From: Lachnospiraceae bacterium
GTDB lineage: Bacteria; Bacillota; Clostridia; Lachnospirales; Lachnospiraceae
DNA: 64,000 nt
Assembly (NCBI GenBank): GCA_022776445.1
Contig: JALFHZ010000122.1
Span: 18,334-82,333, forward strand
Direction: 5' to 3'
In this document: positions 50,596 to 57,562 of the stretch, in pieces
Position numbering within the stretch: position 1 is the first letter of the stretch
How the letters are laid out: the number at the start of each line of letters is the position of its first letter
Translations under genes and position numbers: made by a program
The notes under the pieces: model-generated
Told to the model about the DNA's origin: nothing
The model's database searches: none
The model's input: only the letters and a program-made list of their open reading frames with translations

Positions 50596-51774
50596 TCACT
50601 GCTCCGCTTTCATCCCCGCTGCTCTCGCAGCTCCATACACACTCTGAAAATCTGCTCCGCTTTCTTTACAGATTTTCCGCACACTCTCATATTCCGGATA
50701 ACAATAAACCTGCTCTTTATGCCGGCATACTTTGACTTTTACAGGCCCAAACTCCGTCTCTGCCATGCAGAATTCCCGCTTTAACACCGTTCTTTCCACC
50801 GGATAACGGCGAATGCCGATCGTTGTAGTCATTGTAAACAAAACGTCCTCCAGCTGCTCCCGATCAGTTTCCTCATAAAGAACAGACAACTTGTAGGCCG
50901 GACGGTTCTTCTTCATAAAAATCGGCGTGTACCAGACATCAGCCGCACCGGCTTCCAGAAGCATTTCCATCGCCATCCCCAGCATTTCTCCGGTGGAGTC
51001 ATCCAGATTTGCCTCCATCACCCACTTCTTCTCACATTCCGGCAGTTCCGCGGTCTCCAGGAGCATGGCTCTCAGAACGTTTGCCTGCTGAAACTCCTTG
51101 TTCCCCGCTCCCATACCGATTTTCAGCAGACGGCAATGTTCCGGAAGCTCTTTTCTCGTACGAAGCGCTGCTGCGATCGCGGCTCCCGTCGGTGTCACCA
51201 TCTCTCCATCATTATCCGTAAAGTGTAATTCCAGATCATAAGCCGCCGCTATATTGACCGTTGCCGGAACCGGAACCGGGATGATTCCGTGCTGACAGTG
51301 CACATGACCATGCCCCTCGGCAAGCGGCGATACCACTACAGCTTCCACGCCCAGATTTTCCATGCAGACTGCCACACTGACAATATCAATGATCGAATCG
51401 ATTGCTCCGACTTCATGAAAATGTACCTGTTCTATCGGCAGACCATGCGCTTTTGCCTCAGACTCTGCCACAATCCGGAACATCTTCTTTGCCAGCTCCT
51501 TTACGCGGACACCGGCTTCCATGCGCTCAATAATTTCATACACATCCTGAAGGTTCCGATGCTCATGACCATGAGCCTCCAGATGCACATCAAAATCAAA
51601 AGCATCCAGCCCGCAGACCGTTTTCCGTCCAAAGTGCAGATGGTAGCCATCCACCTTCATACTGTCCAGCACCTGACAGAGTACCTGCTGATCCGCTCCC
51701 AGATCCAAAAGAGCGCCAACGGTCATATCCCCGCTGATTCCCGAGTTACATTCCAGATAAAGTATTTTTCCCAT
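50596..51774 (-). CDS. larC: Nickel-pincer cofactor biosynthesis protein LarC
   Basis: 392 aa; YLECNSGISGDMTVGALLDLGAD; FHEVGAIDSIIDIVSV; VEAVVVSPLAEGHGHVHCQHGIIPVPVPATVNI. Confidence 0.92.
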   Translation of the reverse strand: MGKILYLECNSGISGDMTVGALLDLGADQQVLCQVLDSMKVDGYHLHFGRKTVCGLDAFDFDVHLEAHGHEHRNLQDVYEIIERMEAGVRVKELAKKMFRIVAESEAKAHGLPIEQVHFHEVGAIDSIIDIVSVAVCMENLGVEAVVVSPLAEGHGHVHCQHGIIPVPVPATVNIAAAYDLELHFTDNDGEMVTPTGAAIAAALRTRKELPEHCRLLKIGMGAGNKEFQQANVLRAMLLETAELPECEKKWVMEANLDDSTGEMLGMAMEMLLEAGAADVWYTPIFMKKNRPAYKLSVLYEETDREQLEDVLFTMTTTIGIRRYPVERTVLKREFCMAETEFGPVKVKVCRHKEQVYCYPEYESVRKICKESGADFQSVYGAARAAGMKAEQ

Positions 51775-51793: not shown

Positions 51794-52411
51794 TTATTTC
51801 ACATTTTCTTTTCTCAGATCAATGATTCTGCTGCACAGCTTCTGAAGCAGCGCATCAGAATGACTGACCACCAAAAGCCCGATGTTCCGCCGCTTCACCT
51901 CTTCAAGCAGAAAATTCCAGATCTGGCTCTGGGTGATCAGATCCAGCATCGTGCTGATCTCATCAGCCAGCAGAAATCTGGTTCTTTCTCCCAGTGCGCG
52001 TGCGATGCAGAACCGCTGCAGTTCTCCTCCGGAAAGTTCTCCCGGATACCGGTTCAGCCAGTCCGGCTCAATCCCCAGTCCCTCCAGAAGTTCCGGCTTC
52101 AGGTGATCCCCTTCCTTCAGCACATCGCGCATCTTCCATCTGGGATTCACAGACAGTTCCGGATGCTGCCAGATCATCTGCACCGGGCAATATCCCCGAT
52201 ACGATGCAAGGGTTTTTCCGTCCAGCAGAACCTGACCGCTGTCCGGCTCTTCATAACCGGACAGAATCTTGCAGCAGGTGGTCTTGCCAAAACCACTCGG
52301 AGCGGTAAGCCCCAGCCGTTCCGAGCTCTCCAACCGCAGATTCAGATTGTTCAATATCGTTCGGCTCCCATTGTCATAGCGGAAAACCAGATGCTTTGCC
52401 TCCAGTATCAT
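51794..52411 (-). CDS. ABC transporter ATP-binding protein (nickel/oligopeptide type, NikE/DppF-like)
   Basis: 205 aa; GLTAPSGFGKTTCCKIL, LSGGELQRFCIARAL. Confidence 0.88.
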   Translation of the reverse strand: MILEAKHLVFRYDNGSRTILNNLNLRLESSERLGLTAPSGFGKTTCCKILSGYEEPDSGQVLLDGKTLASYRGYCPVQMIWQHPELSVNPRWKMRDVLKEGDHLKPELLEGLGIEPDWLNRYPGELSGGELQRFCIARALGERTRFLLADEISTMLDLITQSQIWNFLLEEVKRRNIGLLVVSHSDALLQKLCSRIIDLRKENVK

Positions 52412-53268
52412 CCCGTCACCTCCTTCCCGGTTACACGGCTCTGCTTTTCGTAGGGCAAAGTTCCGGGTACGGTCAGAAGTCCGTTCTGCGGCATCGCCCG
52501 GTATAAGGCCCGTGTATAAGGATGACGCAGAAGGTTTTCGTCTGCAAAATCAGCTGCCGCCACATTTTCCAGATCTGTTCCCGCATAAAACACCACAATC
52601 CGGTCTGCCACGGCAATCGCCTGTTCCAGATCGTGGGTAATCAGCAGCACCCCCGTTCCTTCATCCGCAATCTCGCGAAAATGCCCCATAACCCGCTTTG
52701 CCGCTTCGGCATGCAGTCCGGGAGTCGGCTCATCTGCTATCAGCAGACGCGGCTGCTTCTGCACTGCCATGGAGATCAGCACCCTCCTCGCCATACCTCC
52801 GGAAAGTTCAAACGGATACCGGTTTTCCGTGTCCTCTCCCAGCCCATAGCGTCCCAGCGCGGCACGGCAGCATGCTCTGCTTTCTCTGTCTTTTCGCCCC
52901 ATACGCACCTGTTCCCCGACCTTCATCAGCGGGTCCAGACAGGATACGCTCTGCGGGACCAGAGCAATCTCATTTCCCCGCAGTTTTTTCAGACGTTTTT
53001 CATCCAATGTCTCCCCACAGTACTCCATCTCTCCGGTCCACTGTGCGTTGTACGGAAGAAGTCCCATAACCGCATGGGCAAGCAGGCTTTTTCCCGAACC
53101 GCTGGATCCCACCACGGCCACCAGCTCCCCGGCTGCCACTTCCAGATTCAGATCGCGAATCATCTCAAATGATTTCTGCCGCCATCCCCGTTCATACTGT
53201 GTAAACTGAATTGAGAGATGCCGCACGACGAGCACCGTCTGCCCGTTCTGCCGCAGATTTTTCCCCAT
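52408..53268 (-). CDS. ABC transporter ATP-binding protein (nickel/oligopeptide type, NikD/DppD-like)
   Basis: Start MGKNLRQNG with RBS GGAGG; GSSGSGKSLLAHAVMGLLP, LLIADEPTPGLH. Confidence 0.88.
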   Translation of the reverse strand: MGKNLRQNGQTVLVVRHLSIQFTQYERGWRQKSFEMIRDLNLEVAAGELVAVVGSSGSGKSLLAHAVMGLLPYNAQWTGEMEYCGETLDEKRLKKLRGNEIALVPQSVSCLDPLMKVGEQVRMGRKDRESRACCRAALGRYGLGEDTENRYPFELSGGMARRVLISMAVQKQPRLLIADEPTPGLHAEAAKRVMGHFREIADEGTGVLLITHDLEQAIAVADRIVVFYAGTDLENVAAADFADENLLRHPYTRALYRAMPQNGLLTVPGTLPYEKQSRVTGKEVTG

Positions 53269-53294
53269 GGATATTTGCCTCCTGTCACATAGTT

Positions 53295-54119
53295 TCATCG
53301 ATGTGCCTGCCCGGGATCTGTCAGCCCGCTCATCGCTTCTCCGATGGTATAAAACAGCCGAACAACCATTACCAACAGCACGCCCGGAAACACTGCCAGC
53401 CACCACTTTCCCATTGCCAGATACTGCATGCTTTCCGAAAGAATCACACCTATCGCCGGCTGCTCCGGAGAAAGCCCAAATCCCAGAAATGTAATACTCG
53501 CTTCGTGCAGAATCGCGTGCGGAAACAAAAGCACGGCGCCGACCATAAGCTGTGGAAGCAGGTGAGGACTCATGTGTTTTACCGCGATATCAAACGGGCT
53601 TTTTCCCAGCTTTCCCGCAATTTTTACATACTGGCTTTCTTTCAGCTGCAGGGCTTCCGCCCGGAGCACACGTGCCAGGGATGTCCAATGAGTCAGCGAT
53701 ATTCCGATCACCACACCGCGGAACCCTTTCCCTGCCGCAAAGGAAATCAGCACCAGCAGAAGCATATGGGGAACCCCCATCACCAGATCAATCAGACCGC
53801 TGATCAGGCCGTCCACATATCTGCCGCATACCGCCGAAGCGACTCCCATCACCAACGCAGTCGCGGCACTGACCGACGCAGTGAGAAGGCCGATTCGGAT
53901 GCTGAAAGACAGTCCGGTCAGTGTTCGCAGAAACATATCCCGCCCCATCCAGTCTGTTCCGAACGGATAACGCCGACACGGTGCCAGATTCTTTCTCGAA
54001 AAATCCGTCACCAGAGCCTGTTCCTTTACCAGAACTCCAACCAGGGTAATTCCCAGAAGAAATACCATGGCAAACGCAGCCGCAGCCAGCATTATCTGTC
54101 TCTGATTCCAACGCTTCAT
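53295..54119 (-). CDS. ABC transporter permease (NikC/DppC-like)
   Basis: 274 aa; PFGTDWMGRDMFLRTLTGLSFSIRIGL; 4-nt overlap with the upstream permease. Confidence 0.88.
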   Translation of the reverse strand: MKRWNQRQIMLAAAAFAMVFLLGITLVGVLVKEQALVTDFSRKNLAPCRRYPFGTDWMGRDMFLRTLTGLSFSIRIGLLTASVSAATALVMGVASAVCGRYVDGLISGLIDLVMGVPHMLLLVLISFAAGKGFRGVVIGISLTHWTSLARVLRAEALQLKESQYVKIAGKLGKSPFDIAVKHMSPHLLPQLMVGAVLLFPHAILHEASITFLGFGLSPEQPAIGVILSESMQYLAMGKWWLAVFPGVLLVMVVRLFYTIGEAMSGLTDPGQAHR

Positions 54120-55093
54120 GTCTGTCTCCTCCCTCTCCGGATTCTCGGATCAACCGCTTCATACAGCAGGTCTGCGGCCAGATTTCCTGCGAATACAATG
54201 ACTGCCGTAATCACCGTGATCCCCAGAAGAAGCGGCACATCACTGCCCAGACCGGCTGTTACGGCGGCCTGCCCAAGCCCAGGATAAGAAAACACCTGTT
54301 CCACCAGTACGGACCCTCCGAATATCTCGCTGATCGAAGCAAACTGGAGCGTAATACCCGGCAAAATCAGGTTGCGGATTCCATGATGCAGCACAATCCT
54401 CCCCGGGGATTCCCCTCGGGCACGCGCAAACATAACATATTCACTCTCCATGACCTCAAGCATCTTTTCCCGGGTATGAAGAGCAATATGCGATATTCCC
54501 GTCAGCGCCAGTGTCAGTCCCGGAAGAAACGCATGACGGATCCGGTCGGCTGTGGTCACTCCCGATGCCTCGACACCGATCGGCACACTCAATCCGATCG
54601 GGAACCAGCCAAGCCCGATGGCAAACAGCATCAGAAACACCATCGCCAGCCAGAAGGAAGGTGTGCTTGCCGTCAGCAGCGCATAGGATGTTATCAGGCG
54701 GTCCGCCGCACTTTCCCTGCGAATCCCGGCCAGAATGCCAAGCAGAAATCCGAACAGCCCGGACAGAAGCCAGGCCGCGGACAGAAGCCAAAGTGAATTG
54801 GCAAGCTTTGTCCAGATCACCTTCGCCACCGGCTGCCGATACAGCAGTGAGATTCCCATATCGCCTCGCAGAAAATCACCTGCCCAGGACAGAAAACGCT
54901 TCACCGGAGGAACCCCTACCCCCCAATACGCTTGCAGCTGCTCAATCTGTTCCTGACTCATGCTTCCCAGTGCTGTCTGTCCGACATTTGTCGTCAGCGG
55001 ATCCAGCGGTGACATGGAAACCAGAAGAAATGCCGCCGCACTCACCAGAAAAACCAATACTGCCATACGTACACATTTTTTTACCCATCTCAT
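54116..55093 (-). CDS. ABC transporter permease (NikB/DppB-like)
   Basis: Start MRWVKKCVRM; DPLTTNVGQTALGSMSQEQIEQLQAYWGV, FSYPGLGQAAVTAGLGSDVPLLLG. Confidence 0.88.
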   Translation of the reverse strand: MRWVKKCVRMAVLVFLVSAAAFLLVSMSPLDPLTTNVGQTALGSMSQEQIEQLQAYWGVGVPPVKRFLSWAGDFLRGDMGISLLYRQPVAKVIWTKLANSLWLLSAAWLLSGLFGFLLGILAGIRRESAADRLITSYALLTASTPSFWLAMVFLMLFAIGLGWFPIGLSVPIGVEASGVTTADRIRHAFLPGLTLALTGISHIALHTREKMLEVMESEYVMFARARGESPGRIVLHHGIRNLILPGITLQFASISEIFGGSVLVEQVFSYPGLGQAAVTAGLGSDVPLLLGITVITAVIVFAGNLAADLLYEAVDPRIRRGRRQT

Positions 55094-55106
55094 GTTCCAC
55101 GCCCTC

Positions 55107-56702
55107 TTATTTCCAGCCCCACTGATCCACGTTATTGACAATCGACCAGCCGTGTCCATGCGGATGCAGTTTCTGTTCTGCCACCTGAAGTCCTTCCTTT
55201 GCCCAGTACAGGTGATCGATATTCACCAGCCAGATCCACGGAATATCTCCCTGCTGAAGGATTCCGCTCTCACCATCCCACTGTGCTTTCTTCCAGAGTT
55301 CACAGGCTTCCTCCAGATCACCGCAGGCAAGCGCCTCATCCATGCAGCGGTCGGTACGCTCATTGCTGTACGGAGAATACTGTGCATAGTTTCCGCCCGG
55401 AACTGTATGGTAAATATTATAAAGTTCCATCGGCGTATGAGCTCCCCACCCCCACATCAGCGGGTCACTCTGTGCCTGGTCATACGCTGTGTCCCAGCCG
55501 ACACCTTCCGTCGTCACCTCCAGGCCGATTTCCTTCAGCTGATTTGCCGTATCCGCCGCCAACGCCTGACGAACCGAATCATTTGCCGGGTACATCAGCG
55601 TAAACGCCGCACGCACACCGTCCTTCTGCCGGATTCCGTCGTTTCCGGTCAGCCATCCGGCATCCTCCAGCAGCTGCATGGCGGCATCCGGATCGCACGA
55701 AATCTCTGACGCCCCATGGTACCAGGGCATTTTGTCGCAGACGCTGAAAGCAGGGCTTCCATATCCGTTCAGTACATTTCGAATCATTTTCTCCCGGTCG
55801 ATCGCCAGGTTCACCGCACGGCGCACCGCGATATCCGCAGTCACATCATTGCCCACTGCCGCTCCCCCATTTCCAGCCGTTCCTGCCGGAACCGAAGGCA
55901 GATTAAATCCCCGGTTATCCACCGTCTCAAATGCCAGCAGCTGAAATCCGTTTACCATCTGATCCGAATAGGCTGCCGCCGTATAGGCCAGATCCACCTG
56001 TCCGGACCGGACTGCCGCAAATGCTGCATCCTCATCCATAAACAGAATCGTCACCTTTTTCATTTTCGGAGCTTCTCCATAATAATCCGGATTTGCCTCC
56101 AGTATCACCTGCTGCCCCCTGTCCCATTGCTTCAGCATATACCGGCCGGAACCGATCGGATGCATGCCATAATCCGAATCATAGGCATGTTCCGGCACAA
56201 TGCCCACAACCGCCATCGTATACGGCCAGATGGAATAGGGGCGTTCCATGTGGAATATCACGGTATCGTCATCCTTCGCCTCGGCACCGGCAAGCATGGT
56301 AAAATCATTCACAGAGCTGGTATCCCGCAGCGTATTGTAGGTAAACGCCACATCCTCCGCCGTCAGCTTCTCCCCGTCCGTAAAATACACATCGCCGCGA
56401 ATATCCACCGTCCATGTGAGTCCGTCCCCGCTCACCTCCATACCGGTTGCCAGATCATAATCGATATTCAGATCCGGAGTTGTTACGGTCAGCGTACTCT
56501 GGATCAGCGGTTCATGTACATGTTCCCCTGCTCCCCATCCATAAGCCGGATCAAAACCGGCCTCCGGCTCCGAAGTCGGTCCCATGACCACAATCACATC
56601 GTCACGTTCATTCTGCGGCACGGCTGTCTGTTCCCCCGCATTCCCGCATCCGGCAAGCACCAGCACAAGAATCGCTGCCGTATATCCGTACTTTCTCTTC
56701 AT
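55107..56702 (-). CDS. ABC transporter substrate-binding lipoprotein (NikA/DppA family)
   Basis: Start MKRKYGYTAAILVLVLAGCGNAG (lipobox LAGC) with RBS GGAGG; FTDGEKLTAEDVAFTYNTL. Confidence 0.9.
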   Translation of the reverse strand: MKRKYGYTAAILVLVLAGCGNAGEQTAVPQNERDDVIVVMGPTSEPEAGFDPAYGWGAGEHVHEPLIQSTLTVTTPDLNIDYDLATGMEVSGDGLTWTVDIRGDVYFTDGEKLTAEDVAFTYNTLRDTSSVNDFTMLAGAEAKDDDTVIFHMERPYSIWPYTMAVVGIVPEHAYDSDYGMHPIGSGRYMLKQWDRGQQVILEANPDYYGEAPKMKKVTILFMDEDAAFAAVRSGQVDLAYTAAAYSDQMVNGFQLLAFETVDNRGFNLPSVPAGTAGNGGAAVGNDVTADIAVRRAVNLAIDREKMIRNVLNGYGSPAFSVCDKMPWYHGASEISCDPDAAMQLLEDAGWLTGNDGIRQKDGVRAAFTLMYPANDSVRQALAADTANQLKEIGLEVTTEGVGWDTAYDQAQSDPLMWGWGAHTPMELYNIYHTVPGGNYAQYSPYSNERTDRCMDEALACGDLEEACELWKKAQWDGESGILQQGDIPWIWLVNIDHLYWAKEGLQVAEQKLHPHGHGWSIVNNVDQWGWK

Positions 56703-56715
56703 CGACGTTTCCTCC

Positions 56716-56773
56716 AAAAAAATACCAGGAACCGTATCTGCACTCCTTGGGAATGCATCTACCTTCCTGGTAT
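56716..56773 (-). terminator. Intrinsic terminator/attenuator in the leader of the Ni/peptide ABC-larC operon
   Basis: Minus strand ATACCAGGAA-GGTAGA-TGCATTCC-CAA-GGAGTGCA-GATACGG-TTCCTGGTAT followed by T-run and directly by the GGAGG RBS. Confidence 0.75.
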
Positions 56774-56874
56774 GATCCTTCTTCATTTATTCTGTTTTAT
56801 ATTGAACCAATAACGTTCCGTTTTAATCCGGGCACTTCAGTGCCGCAAACGACTTGTGCCGTCCACTGGCATCA

Positions 56875-56903
56875 ACTATAATGAAAAAAACGGGTTTCGT
56901 CAA
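56875..56903 (-). promoter_or_regulatory. Promoter of the Ni/peptide ABC-larC operon
   Basis: TTGACG (56898-56903), N17, TATAGT (56875-56880). Confidence 0.75.
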
Positions 56904-56914
56904 GCCGCAAAAGC

Positions 56915-57562
56915 TCAAACGTTTGCGTGGCTTTTGAAATACTCCTGAATCACTTCATAAAGTTTCTCAGCCAGTGCGCGATGGCTCTCCTCATCCATAT
57001 GCAGCTGGTCCTGCTGACCGGGCACTGCCACCTGAGAAGCATCCACAAACAGGCAGTTACGCTGTCCGGCAACCTTTTCCACATGTGAAGAAAGTTCATG
57101 GGATTTCACTGCTGAGGAACGGTCAAATGTAATATAAATACTGTCCTTTACCGCATCCCCTATATGAATCGGAGATACAATCAGGATCTTCGGAATCGGA
57201 TATCCCTCACGATATGGGAAATGCAGAACCTCATCACACAGTGCACCGATTCCCGCAGCAATCACCCGCGGCTCCGCCTGAAAAATCGTCTTGCAGTCAT
57301 TCGTTCCAAGTGACAGGATAACCATATCCAGCGGCTGATGACTCTGCAGCGCGACCGGCAGAAACCGAAGACCATTCCGATTCGGTTCCAGCGGATCGTC
57401 CCATACGGTAGTACGTCCTCCCATCCCTTCCTCAATCACATAGTAATCCTCGCCCAGCAGTTTCTGCAGACGTCCGGTCCATCTTACATGCCTCGGATGA
57501 CGGCCGCCCGCCGGATTCGTTCCAAATGTATTCGAATCGCCAAAACACAAAATCGTTTTCAC
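56915..57562 (-). CDS. SGNH/GDSL hydrolase family protein
   Basis: 215 aa; ILCFGDSNTFG (block I), LGTNDCK, DQLHMDEESH. Confidence 0.88.
   Translation of the reverse strand: MKTILCFGDSNTFGTNPAGGRHPRHVRWTGRLQKLLGEDYYVIEEGMGGRTTVWDDPLEPNRNGLRFLPVALQSHQPLDMVILSLGTNDCKTIFQAEPRVIAAGIGALCDEVLHFPYREGYPIPKILIVSPIHIGDAVKDSIYITFDRSSAVKSHELSSHVEKVAGQRNCLFVDASQVAVPGQQDQLHMDEESHRALAEKLYEVIQEYFKSHANV

Follow-up and report, generated by a model that had tools for sequence, protein, structure and literature searches.

The window, i.e., the whole 64-kb stretch of DNA analysed here, carries an operon for a solute-binding lipoprotein (SBP), two ABC permeases, two ABC ATPases and LarC, the nickel insertion enzyme of nickel-pincer nucleotide (NPN) synthesis, in agreement with the Ni/peptide importer-larC operon of the original prediction. 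Promoter, leader and terminator precede it, all on the minus strand (56903-56716; Table 1). The best curated model for the SBP is NikA (NCBIfam nickel_nikA, 1.7e-39), with a score below the model cut-off, such that the label 'nickel importer' rests on the linkage to LarC, LarB and LarE and on the rest of the regulon. With the start codon at 56702 and transcription predicted to begin near 56868, the leader spans about 167 nt, where about 170 nt had been proposed. The ribosome-binding site and the homologues place the SBP start at 56702 and not at the upstream ATG (56786), from which the longest open reading frame (55107-56786 of the window) runs in frame through the terminator. The sigma-A promoter is found as described, and most homologous leaders are preceded by TTGAC-N17-TATAAT-like promoters.

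Table 1. Features of the leader and its operon (window coordinates; '.' denotes no strand).
Feature	Coordinates	Strand	Basis
LacI-type palindrome (C)AAACGTTTG / CAAACGTTTG, just upstream of -35 box	56915..56926	.	sequence; sole copy in 64-kb window
Sigma-A promoter TTGACG (56903-56898)-N17-TATAGT (56880-56875)	56875..56903	-	10/12 matches
Hairpin H1 GUGGACGGC-ACAA-GUCGUUUGC, 9 bp, C-G-closed loop, transcript 5' end	56845..56866	-	fold
Hairpin H2 GGCAC-UGAA-GUGCC, 5 bp, C-G-closed loop UGAA	56831..56844	-	fold and homologues
Hairpin H3 UACC-AGGAA-GGUA, predicted antiterminator	56760..56772	-	pairing across 65 leaders and folding
Hairpin H4 UGCAUUCC-CAA-GGAGUGCA, terminator apical helix	56739..56757	-	compensatory changes, 65 leaders
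Intrinsic terminator AUACCAGGAA...UUCCUGGUAU plus U7, abuts GGAGG	56716..56773	-	folding and covariation
Ribosome-binding site GGAGG, abuts U tract	56711..56715	-	sequence
SBP_bac_5 solute-binding lipoprotein	55107..56702	-	Pfam 1.7e-78
ABC permease (NikB/OppB type)	54116..55159	-	profile matches
ABC permease (NikC/OppC type)	53295..54119	-	profile matches
ABC ATPase (NikD/OppD type)	52408..53406	-	profile matches
ABC ATPase (second)	51794..52411	-	profile match
LarC, nickel insertion enzyme	50596..51774	-	LarC1 and LarC2 equivalog models over cut-off

The GC-rich repeats reported for the leader are two tandem hairpins, H1 and H2, and the terminator touches the ribosome-binding site as predicted. 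Its fold reaches -30.0 kcal/mol compared to -11.2 +/- 2.5 kcal/mol for dinucleotide shuffles (z -7.5), and the whole leader shows a z of -4.4 versus shuffles. A simple terminator scanner missed the element because its stem has an internal loop. This loop and the apical helix had both been described and both are present; the internal GGUA, assigned there to the internal loop, fits better as the 3' arm of the alternative hairpin H3. The terminator pairing is conserved in its 9-bp base and in the apical hairpin. Across 65 leaders, 93.6% of the terminator cells are paired with 167 compensatory cells, which is matched in 0/500 shuffles. For instance, stem position 7 is G-C (36), U-A (28) or C-G (1) with zero mismatches, and all 8 pairs of H4 show compensatory changes.

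All hairpins of the leader are of one kind, i.e., a C-G-closed stem whose 3-5-nt loop ends in AA (C-(N)NNAA-G), and H4 has the same loop type. The loops found are ACAA, AGAA, UGAA, CGAA, CAA, AGGAA and AUGAA. H2-type stems differ in sequence across species; the C-NNAA-G loop stays. H1 starts with, or immediately beside, the first transcribed nucleotide: an H1-type hairpin of at least 5 bp starts within 25 nt of the -10 box in 16/28 homologous leaders, compared to 0.22 on average and never more than 3 in 500 shuffles.

The 5' arm and loop of H3 (loop AGGAA, or AUGAA in other leaders) also serve as the terminator's 5' arm. Across the 65 leaders, 94% of the H3 cells are paired, with modest covariation (2 pairs; double changes in 4 cells). 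In silico, H3 of the window has a probability of 0.87 in a transcript truncated before the terminator's 3' arm and of 0 in the full transcript; in most leaders, too, H3 forms if the transcript ends before the 3' arm and is later displaced by the terminator. By eye, it is the 3' arm of H3 with which the terminator competes in some species (L245, L130). Of the two states of the window (H3 -13.1 vs. terminator -29.5 kcal/mol), the terminator is the more stable by about 16 kcal/mol. Termination is hence the default state in the folding model, and read-through would need something that holds H3. As in intrinsic-terminator attenuators, a terminator lies between promoter and first gene and is mutually exclusive with an alternative hairpin.

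The comparison of leaders upstream of homologous operons had been set beforehand as the test that could refute the prediction. Orthologous SBP genes in related genomes do have the same leader, with DNA too diverged for ordinary alignment; a similarity search with the leader DNA returned mostly noise and a few matches upstream of the orthologous SBP gene. The constant parts are the sigma-A promoter, the hairpin or pair of hairpins that opens the transcript, an A-rich variable linker and CCAGGAAGG...TTCCTGG-T(n). Leader, promoter and terminator are conserved both before orthologous operons and before other nickel genes, which strongly supports attenuation, and we hold the leader to be almost certainly a real, regulated attenuator. 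The proposed check against Rfam gave no riboswitch family that matches the leader: there is no gathering match to Rfam 15 (including NiCo, cobalamin, guanidine and T-box) in the window, and relaxed searches of the leader and of 13 homologous loci returned unrelated sub-threshold matches only. Two mechanisms were rejected, i.e., leader-peptide attenuation (on inspection, an AUG after an SD-like AGGAAGGU is present in some species only and the frame is not conserved) and CsrA-type binding (the AGGA loop is constant in H3 only, not in H1/H2).

To find relatives, we used R1, a covariance model of the terminator element, and a pattern scan of 84,980 species based on the terminator motif only, i.e., blind to genes. 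R1 identifies the same leader upstream of CbiM-CbiQ-CbiO-LarB-LarC-LarE (L091, L092), of SBP-ABC-LarB-LarC-LarE (L100) and of a pair made up of an ECF S-component and, after it, a kinase-like protein. The latter arrangement is also found as a second leader in the window's own genome (G000:C241, L112). Related leaders also precede CbiM/NikM, LarB/C/E and DUF4198 genes; a LarB locus (L088) was doubted at first, and the same arrangement is seen in G325. The R1 matches in G459 were rejected as leaders and left out, since they belong to an unrelated multi-copy repeat. This genome has five near-identical scattered hairpins CCCAGGATGGC..GTCCTGGGATTTTT, which look like a repeat family of their own that happens to resemble the terminator model.

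The pattern scan returned 70 loci, among which 56 are directly upstream of nickel/NPN genes (first gene within 450 nt): the S-component in 26, the nickel SBP in 20, CbiM in 7, the kinase in 2 and LarB in 1. The other 14 comprise one contig end, one DUF4198 gene, whose product we take to be NikK-like, three Fec-type importers (Desulfosporosinus and a further Bacillota MAG), one UbiX gene and eight apparent chance matches. Matches in Bacteroidota, Roseomonas and a Ruminococcaceae MAG were dismissed as chance, i.e., they show neither a nickel gene nor DUF3842. Given these loci, we are highly confident that the regulon is a nickel/NPN one, which takes in nickel import and NPN synthesis and, probably, salvage. 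The metal or cofactor theme of the original prediction is thereby borne out. The leader family is widespread and previously undescribed, and most likely represents a conserved RNA switch common to nickel-uptake and nickel-cofactor genes of many gut bacteria.

Some loci add observations of their own. Fec-type ABC importers (SBP-FecCD-ATPase) stand under the same leader in L209, L173, L211 and L266, and in L209 a CobB-like a,c-diamide synthase comes next; the importers are candidate importers of nickel/cobalt chelates or NPN. In a Nitrospiraceae MAG (L196, 936-981), promoter, H1 and terminator precede the gene for the flavin prenyltransferase UbiX, which has no evident link to nickel, and the genome has a DUF3842 gene. 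A small membrane protein (MACF.VPAAEAV...LLWGGSALLAFEHVWHGEVVPWFPFLTAAE; L272, L221 4174-4602) is under the leader in one genome and beside LarC in the other. The LacI-type palindrome of the window also occurs upstream of 8/70 named leaders, compared to about 0.8 expected from background density, and LacI-family genes adjoin long LarA-like genes in several genomes. Site and genes suggest a second layer of control.

The S-component loci relate to the distribution of LarC. We observe LarC in 8/38 genomes with the S-component vs. 38/43 others (p=5e-10, to be read in view of shared ancestry). Among LarA-positive genomes, LarC is missing in 13/17 with the S-component vs. 1/19 without, and this single genome is 59% complete. 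In G324, G412 and G405, LarA and the S-component are encoded close to each other on one contig. That is, the pair of S-component and kinase replaces LarC in LarA-positive genomes, which predicts salvage of the nickel-pincer cofactor. In the simplest reading, the pair imports and phosphorylates NPN, its nucleoside or a precursor. Three genomes (G270, G215, G291) have the leader with the pair or the S-component and neither LarA nor LarC; this may reflect missing contigs, non-LarA NPN proteins as proposed in PMC11796402, or evidence against the salvage reading. The kinase-like partner (L093-L098, L112, L142, L144) has a conserved N-terminal domain of about 170 residues with the motif AVKLLYQSEFGGGHM, fused to a P-loop uridine/nucleoside-kinase-like domain. 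We found neither a Pfam nor a PDB match for the N-terminal domain, and no match of the kinase among PDB sequences. The open-licence literature returned no report on NPN salvage, nickel leader RNAs or DUF3842.

DUF3842 (PF12953), a Rossmann-like protein of 130 residues, was first noticed beside several S-component loci and then tested. It is present in 93/397 sampled genomes of the family and in all 21 genomes with a strong R1 leader vs. 72/376 others (p=9e-15, G459 left out), where common ancestry of the genomes makes such p-values overstate independence. The window's genome encodes it (G000:C208:35222-35608, E 1.4e-51, over cut-off) on a different contig from the leader. Among 80 chosen genomes, DUF3842 is found in 34/34 with a known leader vs. 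5/46 without, and three of these five later showed leaders (G058 and G060; G080 by eye). For the 50 named genomes of the pattern scan, it is present in 41/42 with a plausible leader and in 1/8 with chance matches, the latter being a Lachnospiraceae. The 41 include Desulfosporosinus as well as Fusobacteriaceae, Deltaproteobacteria and Nitrospiraceae MAGs (Fusobacteriota, Desulfobacterota, Nitrospirota). A MAG with an S-component leader (L154) lacks DUF3842.

We also observe adjacency. In at least 12 genomes (G481, G108, G412, G215, G370, G295, G212, G060, G080, G344, G090, G367), the DUF3842 gene immediately precedes the leader in the same orientation, and it is within the 8-kb locus in 14/70 pattern matches. 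DUF3842 is absent from 19 LarC-positive genomes without a detected leader, i.e., it tracks the RNA and not the NPN pathway. The reverse search (R2 plus inspection) revealed leaders in about 15 of 39 DUF3842-positive genomes without a prior leader and none in the rest, with R1 and R2 of incomplete sensitivity and many genomes being MAGs. G083 and G353 likewise have DUF3842 and no detected leader. An AlphaFold model from a 30-sequence alignment (pLDDT 95, pTM 0.90) is of the Rossmann type and, among PDB structures, comes closest to UbiX and NAD(P) enzymes, if only weakly (TM about 0.45). Regulation of RNA is a rare role for Rossmann folds. Given co-occurrence and adjacency, DUF3842 is probably the trans regulator of the leader and, a little less surely, would bind the leader RNA directly.

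We propose the following mechanism. By default, the terminator would form and transcription would stop. When nickel or NPN is short, a trans-acting factor, most likely DUF3842, would bind the repeated C-NNAA-G hairpins, i.e., H1/H2 at the 5' end and H3/H4 at the terminator. A factor that holds H3 would block the terminator, since both use the same 5' strand, and read-through would follow. NPN or a related nucleotide would release DUF3842 from the RNA. NPN is a pyridinium mononucleotide, and the Rossmann-like fold of DUF3842 makes it or a relative a plausible releasing signal; whether the signal is NPN rather than Ni we judge to be an even call.

The leader had been termed an 'attenuator/riboswitch'. 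The first part of this label stands, while the second is not established, given the lack of an Rfam riboswitch match, a conservation confined to short loops and the almost perfect tracking of the RNA by DUF3842. A small-molecule riboswitch of repeated mini-hairpins that senses Ni2+, NPN or a precursor, with DUF3842 merely an NPN-handling protein of the regulon, would agree with the coherent regulon, with a leader serving different downstream genes and with one loop type in tandem, as in guanidine-II RNAs. We nevertheless consider it unlikely: few nucleotides are conserved beyond the loops, DUF3842 is missing from the 19 LarC-positive genomes without a detected leader and so follows the RNA and not the NPN pathway, and with termination as the modelled default a ligand would need to switch import on. 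Loop-confined conservation of repeated hairpins rather resembles protein-bound antiterminators. As in guanidine-II (mini-ykkC), small hairpins with almost identical loops stand in tandem in the leader, joined by a variable linker, but the leader lacks the paired ACGR tetraloops and an Rfam match and precedes other genes. The NiCo riboswitch (czcD) is likewise a transport-gene leader of Bacillota with a nickel/cobalt theme; in contrast, our leader has no Rfam match, precedes import and cofactor synthesis genes and consists of tandem hairpins with an overlapping terminator.

Alternatively, ANTAR or another known RNA-binding antiterminator might act on dual hairpins, with DUF3842 co-occurring for some other reason. 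ANTAR targets consist of two hairpins, the second overlapping the terminator, with hexaloops that carry A1 and G4 (PMC3369931). The leader shows the two-hairpin arrangement (H1/H2 and H3/terminator) and resembles the antiterminators of EutV, NasR and AmiR: short hairpins with conserved loops lie in tandem, the last one has sequence in common with the 5' side of the terminator, and factor binding is predicted to give read-through. However, its loops are C-G-closed NNAA loops of 3-5 nt, i.e., the A1/G4 hexaloop rule does not hold and an ANTAR target was rejected; furthermore, it has up to four hairpins, a nickel/NPN regulon and a different candidate protein. We thus regard this alternative as very improbable. 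Least credible is a constitutive leader, with the terminator keeping expression at a fixed low level and the upstream hairpins shielding the mRNA 5' end: a 5'-terminal hairpin can stabilise mRNA, but the same loop type is repeated in H1-H4, the exclusivity of H3 and terminator covaries, and the regulon is confined to nickel/NPN genes with tight linkage to one protein family.

Our main reading is thus an attenuator of nickel import and NPN supply that is most likely controlled by DUF3842, to which we assign a probability of roughly 0.6. More tentatively, and at somewhat less than even odds, DUF3842 may found a new family of RNA-binding antiterminators that sense NPN with a Rossmann-like fold and control nickel import, NPN synthesis and a hitherto unknown salvage route (ECF S-component and kinase) in Bacillota and several other phyla. 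In terms of scope, a close parallel is the cobalamin riboswitch regulon, where one RNA class likewise governs metal import, cofactor synthesis and salvage transport; the RNAs are unrelated, the cofactor and metal are NPN and nickel instead of B12 and cobalt, and control is here probably protein-dependent.

If correct, bacteria with this leader would have a dedicated NPN-cofactor regulon, comparable to what cobalamin riboswitches provide for B12, and DUF3842 would gain its first function. PMC11796402 suggests that there are NPN proteins other than LarA, and leader-bearing genomes that lack LarA may be a lead to them. Finally, many gut bacteria with LarA-type racemases and without LarC are predicted to obtain the cofactor or a precursor from their neighbours via the ECF transporter and the kinase, which would mean an exchange of nickel cofactor within the microbiota.
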